Below, one piece after another: positions 1 through 6,102 of a stretch of 7,647 nt of DNA. The DNA is from Ignavibacteria bacterium (GTDB taxonomy: Bacteria > Bacteroidota > Ignavibacteria > Ignavibacteriales > Melioribacteraceae). The position numbers and the translations under genes are program-made. Location of the stretch: NCBI GenBank assembly GCA_027347545.1, contig DAIEQT010000036.1, positions 1-7,647 of the forward strand. Direction: 5' to 3'. Each line of letters opens with the position of its first letter. Within the stretch, counting starts at the first letter, position 1. The notes below the pieces were generated by a model. The model was not told where the DNA came from. It did not search any database and was given only the letters and a program-made list of their open reading frames with translations.

Positions 1-861
1 AATGTAGTGATACCCGGCAAACAACTCATCTCCACCTTCTCCGCTAAAGACCTCTTCTACAAATTCCGAAGCCAATTGCGCAACAAGGTAATTCATTATA
101 CTTGAGCGAACCAATAAAGCATCAAAGGATTCTAGGTGATAAATAACGTAAGGGAGAACTTTAATTATATCTTCAAATGAGATAAGTCTTTCGTGATGGG
201 TTGAACGAATATGTTCAGCAACAATTTTAGCGTATTTAAGATCTTCTGCTTCCGGAAAGCCAATTGCGAATGTATGAAGTACATCAACATGAGGACGAAG
301 CAAAGCGGAAATCACACTCGAATCTAATCCACCGGATAGCCACGCCCCAACCGGATGGCTGTTTAATCTTCTTGTAACAGCTTTCGATAGAGTTTCTTTC
401 AATAATACACTTACGTCTTTCTGATTGCTTAATAGCGAACTTGCTTTTTGCAGTTCGTAATATTTTCTTAGTTCAAAATTATCAAGAATATATCCCGGTT
501 CAAGTTCATGAATTGGAGACTTGAATTCCAGCAGAGCTTTAACTTCCGAGGCAAACGCAATTTTTTTATCCGCCAGTATCGCATAATAAAGCGGCTCTAC
601 CCCATATCTATCTCTTTTAAGAATAATATTTTTGTCTGCAATCTCTACCGATGTAGCATCTTCACGATTTGATAATGCAAAAATGTTTGTATTCTTTACG
701 TCGCTGCTAAATGAATCAAGATTATTCGATGCAACTCCAATAGTTATTCCATCTTTTAACAGAATTATATTATGTTTATTTCCTCTATGCGCAATTTTTG
801 AAAGCATATCGTGAGCAACTTTACTCTGATGATTTCCATGAATTCCGATTATACCAGCCAT
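1..861 (-). CDS. Asparagine-synthetase (AsnB)-family amide ligase with degenerate glutaminase domain, 3' part missing
   Basis: The frame is open from ATG at 861 to the window edge, giving 287 residues with the C-terminus outside. The ATP-pyrophosphatase signature SGGLDSS lies at residues 176-182 and the second synthetase motif SGEGGDELFAGY at 273-284, so the carboxylate-adenylating half looks functional. The N-terminal glutaminase half is degraded. It begins MAGIIGIHG, so the usual Cys2 nucleophile is Ala. The RGPD motif reads RGNK, no NGEIYN motif is present, and SGGLDSS comes about 55-60 residues earlier than in E. coli AsnB. The late glutaminase-domain motif DRYGVEPLYY (84-93) survives. 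AsnB relatives with dead glutaminase domains either use free ammonia or, like beta-lactam synthetase and carbapenam synthetase, close an amide with an amine of the substrate. The start is supported by AGAGGAGG six bases upstream. The gene begins one base after the B12 protein's stop, so it is translationally coupled. Family is sure; substrate is unknown. Confidence 0.93.
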   Translation of the reverse strand, partial: MAGIIGIHGNHQSKVAHDMLSKIAHRGNKHNIILLKDGITIGVASNNLDSFSSDVKNTNIFALSNREDATSVEIADKNIILKRDRYGVEPLYYAILADKKIAFASEVKALLEFKSPIHELEPGYILDNFELRKYYELQKASSLLSNQKDVSVLLKETLSKAVTRRLNSHPVGAWLSGGLDSSVISALLRPHVDVLHTFAIGFPEAEDLKYAKIVAEHIRSTHHERLISFEDIIKVLPYVIYHLESFDALLVRSSIMNYLVAQLASEFVEEVFSGEGGDELFAGYHYI

Positions 862-862
862 A

Positions 863-2506
863 TTAAGCCTCCTCTGTTTTAATTAGTTCTGTTCGTTGTT
901 TTTCTGTTAGTATTTTTCCATTTGTCGGATCTACTGCGTACCAAGCGCCGTTTATTAATTGTGTTGAAATACTGCCACAGAGATGAGGATTTCCTTTAAA
1001 GTGTGGTGTATCTAACAGACCGGATTTAATCGCATTAGCAATTGTTTGCGGGTCTGTAAGAGGATCGGCAAGTGATTTCTGCGCAGAATTTTGTATTGCA
1101 TCTAATAATGTATGAGCCTCATAGATTAGCTCAATTTTTCTTTTCTGCACTTCCCCATCAGCAGCAAGATTTGGTAATCCATGCAAACTATTATGCAGCA
1201 CTCCATGAATTATTTTACAACTCTCAATCAGTTCTTCAGGTAAAATGGCATGATTCCCTTCGCTAAAACCAACCACATGTAAAATGTGAGGATTCAATGC
1301 AAGTGAAATAACTGCCGAAGCCGATAACTGACCTTTTGCCATTAATGGATCGGCAGAAAAATGCGCAATACCGGCTCTAACCTCGGTAAAGGATTCAAAG
1401 CTCGAATCATGAAGCGATTGGATGAGTTCTTTTTTGGCAAGCATTTTTGCTAAATCCATCTTTGGAGATGTACCGGGTGGTGTGTTAAACATATATTGCG
1501 CTACATAATTTTTCACACCAACACTTTTTGCATTCATCGCCGCCAAATAAGCCATAGTAACTGCAAGAGAATCATGAGCATCGCGAAGACTCCATTGATG
1601 TGATTCATTAACTTCTACCGGAATTCCCTTTTCTGCATACCATTGCATTACATTTTTATTTTCCGAAATAGCTTCTTTGAGTGCTCTTTTTGATCTGCCA
1701 TCCAGCACGCTGTACCAGGTAAGCGGAATTGCAGCCCAAGCGTTGTTAATTGTTTCAACACTCATTTCAGCCCACCTTTGTAATTCATTTGTTCCGCTAT
1801 AACAACGCATTAGTGGATAATTTCCACAACGAGAAGCTTGATAAATTTCGGCAAGTTCATTTTTACTTCTTATAGGAACGCCACCCGCTCCATCTAGTGA
1901 AGGAATCATATTCTCTGGGTAAAAAAAGTGCTCTTGTGCATTCTGGTCTGTTCCGAGAGAAATCACATCAAGAATTTCTGCTTCAGCTATTTTTTTTACT
2001 CCAAGAATTGTTTCACTTACGGTCGGCCTTCCAAAATGATGACGCAGTATTGGGTATGGATATTTAGCTTTTATACGCTCGATAAGTGTTTGAGGAAATA
2101 GTGCTTGCAAATTTTCAGAATAGCTTCCACGCAAATATTTTTTTATTTCACCTTGGGAATCCTCACCGGTAAAAACTTTTTTGAAGAAGGAATACTCTTT
2201 GGCAACTGCTGCAACAGGTGAAGTCCCACCAAAAATAAACTCTGCTTTACCTAAATCGTTTTCCTCTATTAGATTAGTTAGTTGATCAAAGAGGTTCTTA
2301 GCATTTTCGGGAGTTAGCCTATAACTCAACGCTACTATACCGGGACTATTAATTATGATTTCGTCAATAAGTCTGCTAAGTGGAACTGCCGGACCTAAAA
2401 ACACAATTTCATAACCCTCTGCTTCTGCTAACTTTAGAAAATGATACAACCCGCCCACATGTACACAGTTACCAATTGATGCGCCTAATATTTTTTTCGT
2501 TTTCAA
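863..2506 (-). CDS. Fused cobalamin-binding / glutamate-mutase-E-like protein, substrate unknown
   Basis: About 547 residues in two parts. Residues 1-125 resemble a B12-binding Rossmann domain. CVHVGG (14-19) sits at the DxHxxG position and keeps the His that would ligate cobalt, but has Cys for Asp. ALSYRL (60-65) sits at the SxL position and a GG (93-94) follows as expected. The remainder resembles the E subunit of glutamate (methylaspartate) mutase. Shared patterns are a GNYPLMRCYSGTN strand, a YAEKGIPVEVNE...TMAYLAAMNAKSVGVKNY block, and a C-terminal block from AIKSGLLDTPHFKG to ILTEKQR. In classical glutamate mutase the two parts are separate proteins. A carbon-skeleton or amino-group rearrangement of an amino acid is the likely chemistry, but the substrate cannot be read. 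I prefer TTG at 2506, with GGAG six bases upstream; GTG at 2518 would add four residues but lacks a well-placed site. It is the second gene of the operon, 17 bases after the dehydrogenase stop. Confidence 0.85.
   Translation of the reverse strand: MKTKKILGASIGNCVHVGGLYHFLKLAEAEGYEIVFLGPAVPLSRLIDEIIINSPGIVALSYRLTPENAKNLFDQLTNLIEENDLGKAEFIFGGTSPVAAVAKEYSFFKKVFTGEDSQGEIKKYLRGSYSENLQALFPQTLIERIKAKYPYPILRHHFGRPTVSETILGVKKIAEAEILDVISLGTDQNAQEHFFYPENMIPSLDGAGGVPIRSKNELAEIYQASRCGNYPLMRCYSGTNELQRWAEMSVETINNAWAAIPLTWYSVLDGRSKRALKEAISENKNVMQWYAEKGIPVEVNESHQWSLRDAHDSLAVTMAYLAAMNAKSVGVKNYVAQYMFNTPPGTSPKMDLAKMLAKKELIQSLHDSSFESFTEVRAGIAHFSADPLMAKGQLSASAVISLALNPHILHVVGFSEGNHAILPEELIESCKIIHGVLHNSLHGLPNLAADGEVQKRKIELIYEAHTLLDAIQNSAQKSLADPLTDPQTIANAIKSGLLDTPHFKGNPHLCGSISTQLINGAWYAVDPTNGKILTEKQRTELIKTEEA
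868..874 (-). promoter_or_regulatory. Shine-Dalgarno site of the AsnB-like gene
   Basis: On the minus strand GAGGAGG stands six bases before the ATG at 861. It lies inside the last codons of the upstream B12 protein gene, so ribosomes finishing that gene can restart here. This fixes the ATG and shows that the Met-Ala start, without Cys, is not a mis-called start. Confidence 0.8.
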
Positions 2507-2512
2507 TTTTTT

Positions 2513-2516
2513 CTCC
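2513..2516 (-). promoter_or_regulatory. Ribosome binding site favouring a TTG start
   Basis: On the minus strand GTGGAG is followed by six A residues and then TTG at 2506. The GGAG core is at ideal spacing for the TTG. The same GTG could itself be read as an in-frame start at 2518, but its nearest purine-rich site (AGGAG) is about 16 bases away. Confidence 0.5.
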
Positions 2517-2523
2517 ACTTGAG

Positions 2524-3627
2524 TTACAATTTTTCTCCTATTGCAAGTAGTCTTAATTCTCTAAGGGACATTTCGGCTATTTGCAGTTTTTCAACAGTTC
2601 TGCCAATTGACCAATAATCGGTGTTATTAATAGTTGAAGCAATTTCAATGATAGAATTTATTGTAGGTGTTGGAATGCCGAACTTATTACCAATAGATGC
2701 CATTGGTACTAAGCTGCTGGGAACATCTTCACTTATATAGCGGATAGAAAGCCTGTTCGGCGCCATAATTCCGCGATAGCCGGGATTAGCTCTCATAGAT
2801 TCGCGTAAATCATTTCCCTGCGCACCATAAGCTAAATACAACCACTCTTTTGCGCTCATGGCTCTAATTCCCAGCGATTCCGCAACCCTAATTCTTTCTA
2901 AATCTACCTTTTCAAGTACACGGGCAACCGATTCTGTTACACCTTCTAAATAGAATTGAAACTCTGCGTCATCTTCAATCCATCCAGAATTAAGCACGCA
3001 AATTGCGGGATGGAAGACTGCCCCGATATTATCAAAGCTAGTTTTGAAAATATTGTCTCCGGCAACAAATTGAGGATATGCTATCCTAAGCCGCCCCAAT
3101 ACTTTCGGAATTAAATAAGCCCTTATAGATGCAACCGGTATAGAGTTTTTTATTCTGTAGATATGTGCTTGTGCGGGTCCATTAACCCTAGAAGCATAAA
3201 TAAATGTTTGTGCTTCGGCAATAATTACATCGGAAGTGTTTCCCATTTTCTTAACCACTTGCTTAAATTCCAATGCGCCAAGCGTCCTACCGGGATTAAG
3301 AATTACAATTTGACCATCACGTAAATATGGTGCACATTGTTCGGCAATGAATTCATGAGCAGTTGCAGGAACGACAACCATGATAATTTCCGCATCCTCA
3401 ATTACCTCTTTCATGTTCGTTGAAGCAACGTCTATCTTAGCAAATCCTTCTATCTCACCTTCGAGTGTAATGCCTCTCATGGATTTTACGCCCCAAAGTC
3501 TTTCTTCGGAACGATTGTAGAGTTTGACTTCAAATCCCATTAATGCCAGATGTCCAGCCATAGCTAAACCGCCATGCCCAGCACCAAGTACGGCAAATTT
3601 TGGCTTATTGGTTTTAGTAGCAGTCAT
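2524..3627 (-). CDS. NAD(P)-dependent opine dehydrogenase, octopine/nopaline dehydrogenase family
   Basis: This 367-residue protein has the length and layout of the octopine/nopaline dehydrogenase family. The N-terminal Rossmann fold has the dinucleotide motif GAGHGG (15-20), a second strand ending VKLYNRS, and VVVPATAH (84-91). The C-terminal helical domain has GAVFHP (202-207), whose His206 matches the catalytic His, and RYISEDVP (296-303), whose Asp301 matches the partner Asp. Family members reductively condense an amino acid amine with an alpha-keto acid to a secondary-amine dicarboxylate (an opine), or run the reverse oxidation. Residues for substrate choice cannot be read. The start is ATG at 3627 because AAGGAGG lies five bases upstream; an in-frame ATG at 3657 would add ten residues but would place this site inside the gene. 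It is the first gene of the three-gene operon. Family is confident; the real substrates are unknown. Confidence 0.93.
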   Translation of the reverse strand: MTATKTNKPKFAVLGAGHGGLAMAGHLALMGFEVKLYNRSEERLWGVKSMRGITLEGEIEGFAKIDVASTNMKEVIEDAEIIMVVVPATAHEFIAEQCAPYLRDGQIVILNPGRTLGALEFKQVVKKMGNTSDVIIAEAQTFIYASRVNGPAQAHIYRIKNSIPVASIRAYLIPKVLGRLRIAYPQFVAGDNIFKTSFDNIGAVFHPAICVLNSGWIEDDAEFQFYLEGVTESVARVLEKVDLERIRVAESLGIRAMSAKEWLYLAYGAQGNDLRESMRANPGYRGIMAPNRLSIRYISEDVPSSLVPMASIGNKFGIPTPTINSIIEIASTINNTDYWSIGRTVEKLQIAEMSLRELRLLAIGEKL

Positions 3628-3632
3628 AATAT

Positions 3633-3639
3633 CCTCCTT
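3633..3639 (-). promoter_or_regulatory. Shine-Dalgarno site that decides the opine dehydrogenase start
   Basis: On the minus strand AAGGAGG is followed by five bases and the ATG at 3627. The match to the anti-Shine-Dalgarno sequence is complete, and it argues against the longer form starting at 3657. Confidence 0.8.
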
Positions 3640-3804
3640 GGAAAAAATATTCTCCACTGAACAAATTAAAAGCCTTTAAGCTGCTTGTTTAAAAGCCTGT
3701 GCTTCTGATTCACTGAAAACTGTCTGTTTCAAGTATATTACTTGTAATGGACTGTGCTGAGAAATTAATCCATTAAAGCTTCTGGTTAATAACTAGTAAA
3801 GGAA

Positions 3805-4158
3805 TTAAGAAATTGTCGGAGGAGCTTTATTAGAGAGTGTAAATAATATTGAGGACTTGTAATTTATGATGAGTGGAAATTCATAAACATCATTTCCATC
3901 CAATTTGCCGTGTGAAAAACTGTCTTGAAACAATAAAGGAAAAAGCTTACCGAGCTCAATTTTCTTTACTAACGGTAAATGCCTTCTGGGAAGGATAAAT
4001 GAATTTTGACTCTTTGAAAAATTTGTTTCCGATATCTGCGGGAAAGTATTAAACGAAATTTTTAGAAAAATTGGTGGTGTGTGAATTAGCCTGCTATATA
4101 CGTGCGTTATATAGATTATGGCTAAAAAGACAATTAATATTTTTTTGAATTTGTTCAT
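3805..4158 (-). CDS. Small exported hypothetical protein
   Basis: A 117-residue frame starting MNKFKKILIVFLAIIYITHV has a positively charged N-terminus followed by a hydrophobic stretch, as in a signal peptide or single membrane anchor. The remainder is rich in Ser, Phe, Leu and Lys and ends NKAPPTIS. I recognise no domain. The open frame extends upstream to an ATG at 4227, but that adds 23 residues that would bury the signal-like segment, so I prefer the inner ATG at 4158. No convincing Shine-Dalgarno site precedes either start. It points the same way as the opine dehydrogenase but is separated from it by about 180 bases. It could be a real short secreted protein or a chance frame in AT-rich DNA; the well-placed signal-like start is the main reason to keep it. 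Confidence 0.4.
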   Translation of the reverse strand: MNKFKKILIVFLAIIYITHVYSRLIHTPPIFLKISFNTFPQISETNFSKSQNSFILPRRHLPLVKKIELGKLFPLLFQDSFSHGKLDGNDVYEFPLIINYKSSILFTLSNKAPPTIS

Positions 4159-4368
4159 TACTATTAAAAATATATGGCTTTTGAAAAGGAACCGCAAGGT
4201 GAAATAAAAGTCACATTTTAAGTTCATTTATGCTTATAGAATTCCTAAGCGATCAGATTATTTTCATTTACAATAAAAACTGAGCAACCTGACTCTTTTG
4301 CAGTATGAAAAATATTAGCTTCTCTCAAATCAGTAAATTCACACTAGCCAACCCAAATGACGAGCCGC

Positions 4369-4503: not shown

Positions 4504-4914
4504 ATGAAAAAGTTAGTAACACTTATTATGCTTCTCGGGGTTTTTGCAATGTACGCAGAAATTTCCGCACAGACCACAACAACACCGCCAACTCAGCATG
4601 GAAAAAACTTTGTTGATAAAAATGGCGATGGCTACAACGATAACGCACCAGACCATGATGGTGACGGGATTCCAAATGGTGTTGATCCGGATTATACCGG
4701 CGCTAAAGTTCAAAAGAATAAGTTTGTTGATTTGAACGGCGACGGTATTAATGACAATGCCGGCAAAGGAAAGAAAGGCGGCAAAACTGGTAAAGGTGGT
4801 TTAGGTGCAGCCGGTAAGGGAATGAAAAACGGCACACAAAACTGTACTACAACTGGAACGCAAACCGGAACACAAAGCGGTAGCGGAAACGGTTATAGAG
4901 GCGGCAGAAAGTAA
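4504..4914 (+). CDS. Small secreted protein with three Asp-rich calcium-binding-type loops and a Gly/Lys/Thr-rich tail
   Basis: 136 residues. A signal peptide (1-22, ending EISA) would be cleaved before Gln23. The mature part carries a 13-residue unit, FVDxNGDGxNDNA, twice (36-48 and 74-86). Between them is a third loop, DHDGDGIPNGVDPD (50-63). Spaced Asp/Asn side chains around DG are typical of calcium loops in EF-hand, dockerin and thrombospondin type 3 repeats, so calcium binding outside the cytoplasm is likely but inferred. From residue 87 the chain is low-complexity: Gly-Lys runs, then TGTQTGTQSGSG, with one Cys (113) and a basic end, GGRK. No enzymatic domain is present. The start has AAGAGGA four bases before the ATG. 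A strong terminator follows 19 bases after the stop, so the gene is probably its own transcript. Its role is unknown; a cell-surface or matrix component is possible. Confidence 0.88.
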   Translation: MKKLVTLIMLLGVFAMYAEISAQTTTTPPTQHGKNFVDKNGDGYNDNAPDHDGDGIPNGVDPDYTGAKVQKNKFVDLNGDGINDNAGKGKKGGKTGKGGLGAAGKGMKNGTQNCTTTGTQTGTQSGSGNGYRGGRK

Positions 4915-4968: not shown

Positions 4969-6102
4969 ATGAAAATCGCTAGTAAAATATTTATTGCAAT
5001 ATTCTTTTCAACTTTGGTTTCTTCTACAATTCTTGGGCAATGGAGTTTTGGTTTATCAACCGAACAAGAGTATAACGACAATCCATTCCGTTCTAAACTA
5101 GCCGAGAAAGCTCTTGTTTCTTCTTTTAGCGGAAACGCCGGATATGACTTTGACTTTCTCAAAGTAGGATATGCTGGAAGTTTAATTTCGTTTGATGTTT
5201 TACCGGAAAGAAATTTCTACTTGCATCAAGCAGCGGCCTGGATGGAATTTGAATCATCATCACTTGGCGTCTCATTCGAACAAAGATTAAACAAAGATAT
5301 CTACACATATTTCGATTACGATAATTTTTCTCTCTACTACAATCAGCAGTCTGAGCTTGAAAATTTTCACATCACTCTTGCACCATATACCAGCTTCACC
5401 CAATACAAGAACATTCCAATTCTTGATAATTTACAAACTAGTTTAAGCGCAACAGTAAACAGAGGCTTTGAAACCGGAACTACAGTAATTTTAGGCGGTG
5501 CGCTTAATTACAAGAAATACACTTCCCCAATTCAAAGCGGAACATATTCTTATTTTGATGAAACAAACACACTGGTTACAGAATCTTATAAAGACAAAAA
5601 TGTTTCCTCAGTTACGCAAGTACTAACCTTTGCGCGTGTTGCGCAATCAATAACAGAAACAACCGGGCTTGCAACTCAGTTTACTAATAGAAGCATCTTA
5701 AGCGGTTTTGGTGCTTTTGTAAAAGACTTGAACGTTGTTTACGGCGATGAATCAGAAATGTTTGATGATCCGGTGAACTATGAAGGAAATAATTTCTCTA
5801 TTGAGCTAACACAAATTCTATTTGAAGATTTTCAGATTAAAGCTGGTTACTATTTGAATAAGAAGAACTATCCTTCTCAGGGTATTTACGACGAACTGCT
5901 TGCTTACAATACAGGCTTAATGAGAAGTGATACCCAAAATATTTTCAGCTTATCGGTAAAGAAAAATATCTCTCTGGATTCCGCAAGCGGACTAAATCTA
6001 TCCGTCGGTTTGAACTATCAGATGATTAACAATAAATCCAACAGCTATTTGTTTGATTATAAAAGCAATTCAATCAATCTAAATCTTGGCTTCGAGCTTT
6101 AG
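4969..6102 (+). CDS. Exported outer-membrane beta-barrel-like protein, function unknown
   Basis: 377 residues. A signal peptide (about 1-23) is followed by Gln24 and WSFGLSTEQEYNDNPFRS, a typical first strand and loop of outer-membrane barrels. The mature chain is almost all alternating polar/hydrophobic strands with many Tyr, Phe, Asn and Ser, for example LSLYYNQQS-like and NLSVGLNYQMINNKSN segments. It ends INLNLGFEL, a plausible last strand although the final residue is Leu rather than Phe. There is no plug, TonB box, OmpA peptidoglycan motif or enzyme motif. The likely place is the outer membrane, as a pore or structural protein. The start ATG follows a T-tract and GGTG with no strong Shine-Dalgarno site, but it begins the signal peptide exactly. 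It lies between the calcium-loop protein and the histidine kinase on the same strand, 115 bases before the kinase. No family name can be given from sequence alone. Confidence 0.85.
   Translation: MKIASKIFIAIFFSTLVSSTILGQWSFGLSTEQEYNDNPFRSKLAEKALVSSFSGNAGYDFDFLKVGYAGSLISFDVLPERNFYLHQAAAWMEFESSSLGVSFEQRLNKDIYTYFDYDNFSLYYNQQSELENFHITLAPYTSFTQYKNIPILDNLQTSLSATVNRGFETGTTVILGGALNYKKYTSPIQSGTYSYFDETNTLVTESYKDKNVSSVTQVLTFARVAQSITETTGLATQFTNRSILSGFGAFVKDLNVVYGDESEMFDDPVNYEGNNFSIELTQILFEDFQIKAGYYLNKKNYPSQGIYDELLAYNTGLMRSDTQNIFSLSVKKNISLDSASGLNLSVGLNYQMINNKSNSYLFDYKSNSINLNLGFEL

Follow-up and report, generated by a model that had tools for sequence, protein, structure and literature searches.

The window analysed here, a 7,647-base stretch of Ignavibacteria DNA that makes up one complete contig (G000:C96) of a fragmented assembly (530 contigs, 75% complete), carries a minus-strand operon encoding an opine dehydrogenase (ODH), a fused B12 mutase-like protein and an AsnB-type ligase. 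This is a real, conserved and functionally coherent gene set whose association has been known since 2009, without a function. We tentatively read it, with a probability that falls a little short of even, as a salt-responsive three-gene pathway to an amidated aspartate-type opine that would serve as a compatible solute, the mutase supplying or reshaping the aspartate-type unit; our confidence is moderate for the class of compound and low for the exact molecule. The reading draws on features observed directly in the genomes: gene order and its conservation, residue signatures, two states of the ligase, linkage to MarC genes, and riboswitch matches.

The ODH gene (2524..3627, minus strand) starts with ATG at 3627 behind an AGGAGG ribosome-binding site (3628..3645, minus), the open reading frame (ORF) list reaching further, to GTG at 3657. 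The B12 protein gene (863..2506, minus) starts with TTG at 2506, after a GGAG ribosome-binding site in the 17-base gap that separates it from the ODH gene (2507..2523, minus); the ORF list gives GTG 2518, and in alignment the 2506 start is in line with most relatives. The ligase gene (1..861, minus) follows after one base, and its AGGAGG-like ribosome-binding site lies within the end of the B12 gene (junction, 862..880, minus). Because the ligase gene overruns the contig end, only its first 287 residues are visible. Given the 2506 start, the three close-packed genes with 17- and 1-base gaps and coupled ribosome-binding sites described in a first-pass annotation of this DNA are confirmed.

Relatives were gathered at E ≤ 1e-30 from six genome searches, together with the strong matches of two other searches. 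Genomes with a match numbered 5/395, 11/247, 12/391, 2/2, 2/45 and 9/393 (the sets overlap, with one duplicate), and the total came to 37 distinct loci, window included. At 32 of the 37, ODH and B12 genes occur together in the same orientation; among the other five, L012, L039 and L080 hit a contig end next to the B12 gene, and at L042 and L044 ODH is absent from the stretch examined. An AsnB-type ligase is present at 23 loci, L062 and L080 are cut, and the stretch examined at the other 12 contains none; at L065 the ligase stands 2.1 kb off, with a CBS-domain gene and a gene for an antiporter in between. The gene order of the window is repeated in other phyla, which is more than chance, and named carriers include Stygiobacter, a Bacteroidales bacterium, Aminicenantes, Desantisbacteria, Firestonebacteria and Rosettibacter firmus (P0036). 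The genes are therefore not adjacent in this genome only, and the earlier proposal that they are suited to making a modified, N-carboxyalkylated and probably amidated amino acid gains support from the conserved three-enzyme set. The patchy spread in the searched phyla would fit transfer between lineages or frequent loss; no plasmid record encoded a relative at E 1e-5. A weak corrinoid-protein match (G014, L006, E 4.4e-5) was dropped.

The literature search turned up no paper on this pathway, in keeping with the first-pass statement that none is described, but it did surface a 2009 report in BMC Genomics (PMC2667541) that had already printed the gene association. The available part of that report describes a predicted B12-dependent family always next to pfam02317 in 11 bacteria (Clostridia, Lactobacillales, Chloroflexi and Thermotogae), gives no function, and places D-Ala-D-Ala ligase and asparagine synthase near the family in several organisms. 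The set described here likewise joins a B12 gene to an octopine/nopaline dehydrogenase gene, with asparagine synthase or D-Ala-D-Ala ligase near, in several phyla, and is taken to be of the same kind, matched by description and not by sequences. Glutaminase loss, the ODH specificity pair, MarC, the Na+ switches and the relation to glutamate mutase go beyond the available part of the 2009 account.

The window ODH matches PF02317 at 153.9 bits (cut-off 30) and Arthrobacter opine dehydrogenase (ArODH) over its full length (E 1.3e-72). Its H206 and D301 correspond to His202 and Asp297 of ArODH, which we take to be the catalytic pair, and both are kept in every readable copy among 32 ODHs (30/30 and 31/31; the Asp of L010 is unsure). 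R114 and G202 stand at ArODH positions 111 and 198, where readable copies have Arg in 31/31 and Gly in 30/30; the same Arg/Gly pair occurs in ODHs beside divergent mutases and among polysaccharide genes. According to the available part of a 2024 study (PMC10787698), hot-spring enzymes (mODHs) favour L-Asp with pyruvate, and mutagenesis showed that a joint swap at 111 and 198 (Ala/Asn versus Arg/Gly) shifts preference from Phe to Asp or back. The window ODH is thus predicted to belong to the aspartate-type subclass and to act on L-aspartate and pyruvate. By our alignment, Arg at residue 39 falls on the published NADPH marker position (ArODH 35) in 31/31 copies; this marker is weaker than the 111/198 pair because the wording in the available text of PMC10787698 gives Ala at ArODH 35 and the chain count gives Ile, and the residue order in that sentence may be reversed. 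The ODHs described here therefore resemble mODHs in the Arg/Gly pair, in Arg at 35 as we align it, and in the His/Asp pair; unlike the mODHs, whose gene context goes unmentioned in the available part of PMC10787698, they are known from sequence alone. At L040 (10680-12299, minus) a PTS EIIA type 2 domain is fused to the N-terminus of the ODH, which might connect it with nitrogen or potassium regulation.

In the B12 protein, an N-terminal B12-binding domain (residues ~1-128) is fused to a glutamate-mutase-E-type barrel (~134-547). As in glutamate mutase GlmES (1cb7/6h9e), the E-subunit barrel fold is present, over 373 residues, and the profile match is collinear; unlike GlmES, the B12 domain is fused at the N-terminus, and Cys-x-His-x-x-Gly stands where GlmES has Asp-x-His-x-x-Gly. 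The CxHxxG form marks the main group, window included, and six divergent members have DxHxLG. The profile match to glutamate mutase appeared in local mode only, with 59 and 120 sequences; a 26-row alignment compared directly with a single glutamate mutase E protein yielded no match (probability 0.3), and neither did a deeper comparison in global mode (E 0.39). The B12-binding Pfam score of the window protein is 27 bits, under the cut-off of 32.1, and the protein has no match to PF06368 (glutamate mutase) at E 0.001, a label carried by one of the 120 relatives listed; the PF06368 search of 11 carrier genomes found one match, a separate, ordinary glutamate mutase in G427. The first-pass term "B12 mutase-like" holds by fold and not by Pfam glutamate-mutase family. 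A pyridoxal phosphate (PLP)-dependent aminomutase (lysine 5,6- or ornithine 4,5-) was considered and rejected: the expected PLP-binding Lys, presumably 11 residues past the B12 His, is absent, position 27 being A, C, S or T in 53 main members and L in six divergent ones.

Several side observations concern the divergent mutases. L041 and L043 have an ODH and a divergent mutase with no ligase; the genes that come next belong to families that also include regulator-like genes of L009 and L011. At L042 and L044 a divergent B12 mutase gene without ODH adjoins a Na+:alanine symporter gene, with TauE also at L044. At L078 a radical SAM protein with a B12-binding domain (12692-14083, plus) is encoded in the same gene run as an ODH, a divergent mutase and a D-Ala-D-Ala-ligase-type enzyme.

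The window ligase matches PF00733 at 139.6 bits. Its second residue is Ala (MAGI) in place of the glutaminase Cys, which bears out the earlier description of it as glutaminase-dead, and its amidotransferase domain is ~40-60 residues shorter than in MCGI relatives. Two states of the ligase were found among the 23, with the N-terminus readable in 22 (L065 counted; L010 is masked there). Ten have the N-terminal Cys and a full glutaminase, all in the same kind of operon; 12, including that of the window, have a shortened domain and, in place of Cys, either Ala, Gly, Ser or Thr or, at L040, a changed start. These 12 form one side of a branch (99/98) of the ligase tree. Unrooted, the tree needs one change; if the midpoint root of the drawing is adopted, L065 groups next to the intact ligases, implying a second loss. 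Glutaminase-lost ligases occur with both mutase groups (the mutase of L040 is divergent). Since intact and lost ligases have the same partners, the simplest reading is the same product with a changed nitrogen source.

The synthetase domain of the family resembles that of asparagine synthetase B (1ct9). The ATP loop (SGGxDSS) and the catalytic Glu (SGEG) are kept in 23/23 ligases and the catalytic Lys in 22/22 readable ones, the window ligase being cut before the Lys site; we take these residues to be Glu348 and Lys449 in AsnB numbering. Unlike 1ct9, the window ligase lacks the N-terminal Cys, has a shortened glutaminase domain and reads LLVR for TTIR. Beta-lactam and carbapenam synthetases (1jgt, 1q15) are likewise AsnB relatives without glutaminase, and one of them has an opine-like substrate. 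Carbapenam synthetase (CarA) has Tyr, as presumably does beta-lactam synthetase, at the site where all 23 operon ligases hold the Glu of AsnB. This Glu, together with the intact Cys in 10 of 22 ligases, favours amide formation and disfavours a lactam, so the lactam closure offered as an alternative in the first-pass annotation is not supported.

A possible link to salt comes from riboswitch matches. In an Rfam search at gathering threshold, which covered 36 of the 37 loci, nhaA-I (the Na+-II riboswitch in the available part of PMC9337991) scored above cut-off three times in two genomes. At L065 one match lies 46 bases before the ODH gene and a second 240 bases before the ligase gene; at L066 the match precedes the B12 gene. 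All three have a terminator-like hairpin and T run overlapping the 3' arm (two were folded). The other 34 loci, including the window, gave no Na+-II match at that threshold, and a model built from the three matches, the one search that also took in L079, found nothing further good in the 37 loci (best other E 0.2). No cobalamin riboswitch near the operon was among the Rfam matches of the 36 loci. Upstream of the ODH gene, a sub-threshold Rfam search of L008 and the window gave chance-level matches only, and a scan for promoters and terminators found fewer promoter-like sites than in shuffles and no terminator. The beta-lysine and beta-glutamate genes ablA and eam encode radical-SAM aminomutases. 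As far as the available part of PMC9337991 goes, Na+-I riboswitches accompany genes for beta-lysine and beta-glutamate, which are osmoprotectants or precursors of them. The operon at L065 and L066 resembles those osmolyte genes in combining an amino-acid-rearranging enzyme with a Na+ riboswitch, and differs from them in pairing a B12 mutase, an ODH and a ligase with Na+-II.

Transport genes were found beside the operon, Pfam having been run on selected neighbours. A MarC gene lies immediately 3' of the ligase gene in 8 of 25 carrier genomes, accounting for 8 of the 18 MarC copies above cut-off; ~0.06 copies would be expected in the 10-kb neighbourhoods, a comparison in which relatedness makes the genomes less than independent. 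The available part of PMC12003319 assigns MarC and SnatA to the neutral amino acid transporter family. Genes for DUF389 membrane proteins occur near the operon at L035, L036, L037, L038 and L009 (5 of 13 copies in 25 genomes), and mechanosensitive-channel, ClC and Na+/H+ antiporter genes recur near operons; the mechanosensitive-channel (PF00924) linkage is suggestive only.

From these features we infer the following substrates and product. The adenosylcobalamin-dependent mutase would convert L-glutamate to 3-methyl-L-aspartate or a close analogue, the least certain step, suggested by its fold. The ODH, with NADPH and pyruvate, would then form N-(1-carboxyethyl)-(3-methyl)aspartate, as the Arg/Gly pair of the related mutagenised enzyme suggests. 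The conserved catalytic residues of the ligase point to ATP-dependent adenylation of a carboxylate and addition of ammonia to give an amide, the nitrogen probably coming from glutamine where the glutaminase is intact and, for the lost form of the window, from free ammonia or a different amine. The MarC-family protein of eight relatives would move the product, and the Na+ riboswitch of two genomes would turn the genes on under salt.

Several observations weigh against this pathway. Unlike GlmES, the B12 protein does not have the arginine claw at aligned positions: R66, R100 and R149 align, at a confidence that is low to middling, to H157, A190 and Y236, and invariant R155 and R234 lie two residues from claw positions, with no Arg near the R100 position. 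Glutamate may therefore not be the substrate. In operon ligases the TTIR motif of AsnB becomes LLVR, PLVR or similar, and because the residues before the conserved Arg differ, the ligase probably acts on something other than plain aspartate. Turnover of aspartate by the characterised aspartate ODH is slow (Km 25 mM, kcat 0.9 per s, from the available part of PMC10787698), so that aspartate itself may not be the natural substrate of the ODH. Na+ switches occur at 2 of 37 loci, and none is upstream of the window's ODH gene. The window ends inside the ligase gene, the single MarC gene found in its assembly belongs to a different contig (C130), and MarC is likewise away from the operon in the same-genus relative G001. 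Of 22 genomes that possess PF00924 (MscS), only 2 carry it at the operon. Twelve of the 37 loci are without an AsnB-type ligase in the stretch examined, several of them among polysaccharide genes with an ATP-grasp enzyme, and the ODH gene of L059 has a gene for a D-Ala-D-Ala dipeptidase upstream, which a cell-wall role would fit better.

These last variants matter most for the alternative that survives best, a surface building block, in which an opine-type acid would be made for attachment to a polysaccharide or other cell-surface polymer. At Bacteroidales-order loci an ATP-grasp enzyme often lies at most two genes from the ODH-B12 pair (recognised by Pfam at L021, L077, L078 and L082 and by sequence family at L079 and L081), and polysaccharide genes often lie alongside. 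Pfam identifies polysaccharide export and polymerase families at L077 and a polysaccharide deacetylase at L079 and L081, and at L021 and L082 such genes were recognised by eye or from shared families. The ATP-grasp enzyme of L078 belongs with the D-Ala-D-Ala ligases, a type also named in the available part of the 2009 report (PMC2667541). These variants, the main reason for this alternative, suggest that the ODH-mutase product can be put to different uses, and the dipeptidase gene of L059 and an acyltransferase-like gene beside L060 would also suit it. Around the ligase-bearing operons, however, the Pfam-tested neighbours included no polysaccharide polymerase, export or glycosyltransferase family, and Na+ switches and MarC are ill-suited to an attached residue; we consider a surface role unlikely for the three-gene set.

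Rather more doubtful is a breakdown route or redox shunt, with the ODH cleaving an opine and the mutase returning 3-methylaspartate to glutamate. We take both reactions to be reversible, and two divergent B12 genes adjoin Na+:alanine symporter genes (L042, L044), but an ATP-spending ligase is biosynthetic, and Arg 39 of the ODH, by our alignment, occupies the published NADPH marker position.

An exported chelator or signal, such as a metallophore-like, metal-binding compound of the N-(1-carboxyethyl)aspartate type, seems improbable. Zincophores are made by opine dehydrogenases elsewhere (PMC7438024, available part), MarC could export such a compound, and at L066 the operon has an AcrB-type pump gene on its upstream side. 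Against this, the dehydrogenase of zincophore systems belongs to a different family, and the selected Pfam-tested neighbours included no metal receptor or ABC importer. The weakest candidate, the lactam-closed, antibiotic-like metabolite of the first-pass annotation, made by a beta-lactam-synthetase-like ligase, is highly improbable: glutaminase loss and an opine-like substrate recall those synthetases, but the Glu/Tyr site and the intact glutaminases of ten sister operons speak against the closure, and the fold score is higher for AsnB.

Other genes were noted in passing. Immediately upstream of the ODH gene, the window has a 140-residue ORF (3805-4227, minus) with no match in a Pfam search and with a 50% identical counterpart in the same place at L011 (8308-8739). 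Farther along are genes for a small protein that looks secreted and has two calcium-binding-like repeats of the DxNGDGxxD type (4504-4914, plus), a 377-residue protein with a signal-like start that is perhaps an outer-membrane barrel, judged by eye (4969-6102, plus), both without a match in the Pfam search, and a sensor histidine kinase with PAS and the beginning of HisKA, cut at the contig end (6203-7645, plus). Elsewhere, a DUF5698/DUF2179 protein gene lies right behind the ligase gene in three genomes of one genus (L020, L061, L064), and single loci have a GNAT acetyltransferase (L007), a phosphotransacetylase (L013) or an alpha-fucosidase (L012).

The favoured reading, an amidated aspartate-type opine serving as compatible solute, has a fuller form that we regard as unlikely: a new compatible-solute class, the amidated 3-methylaspartate opine, made under Na+-riboswitch control and moved by MarC, with the ligase of one lineage working on free ammonia. 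With the ODH residue pair, both states of the ligase, the link to MarC and the Na+ switches, what was in 2009 an association of genes becomes a pathway open to testing, for which a class of substrate and an inducer can be named. Its carriers go beyond metagenome bins and include one named species, Rosettibacter firmus. If true, the pathway would add a B12-dependent route to osmolytes and would supply the aspartate opine dehydrogenases, which are slow, with a physiological substrate.

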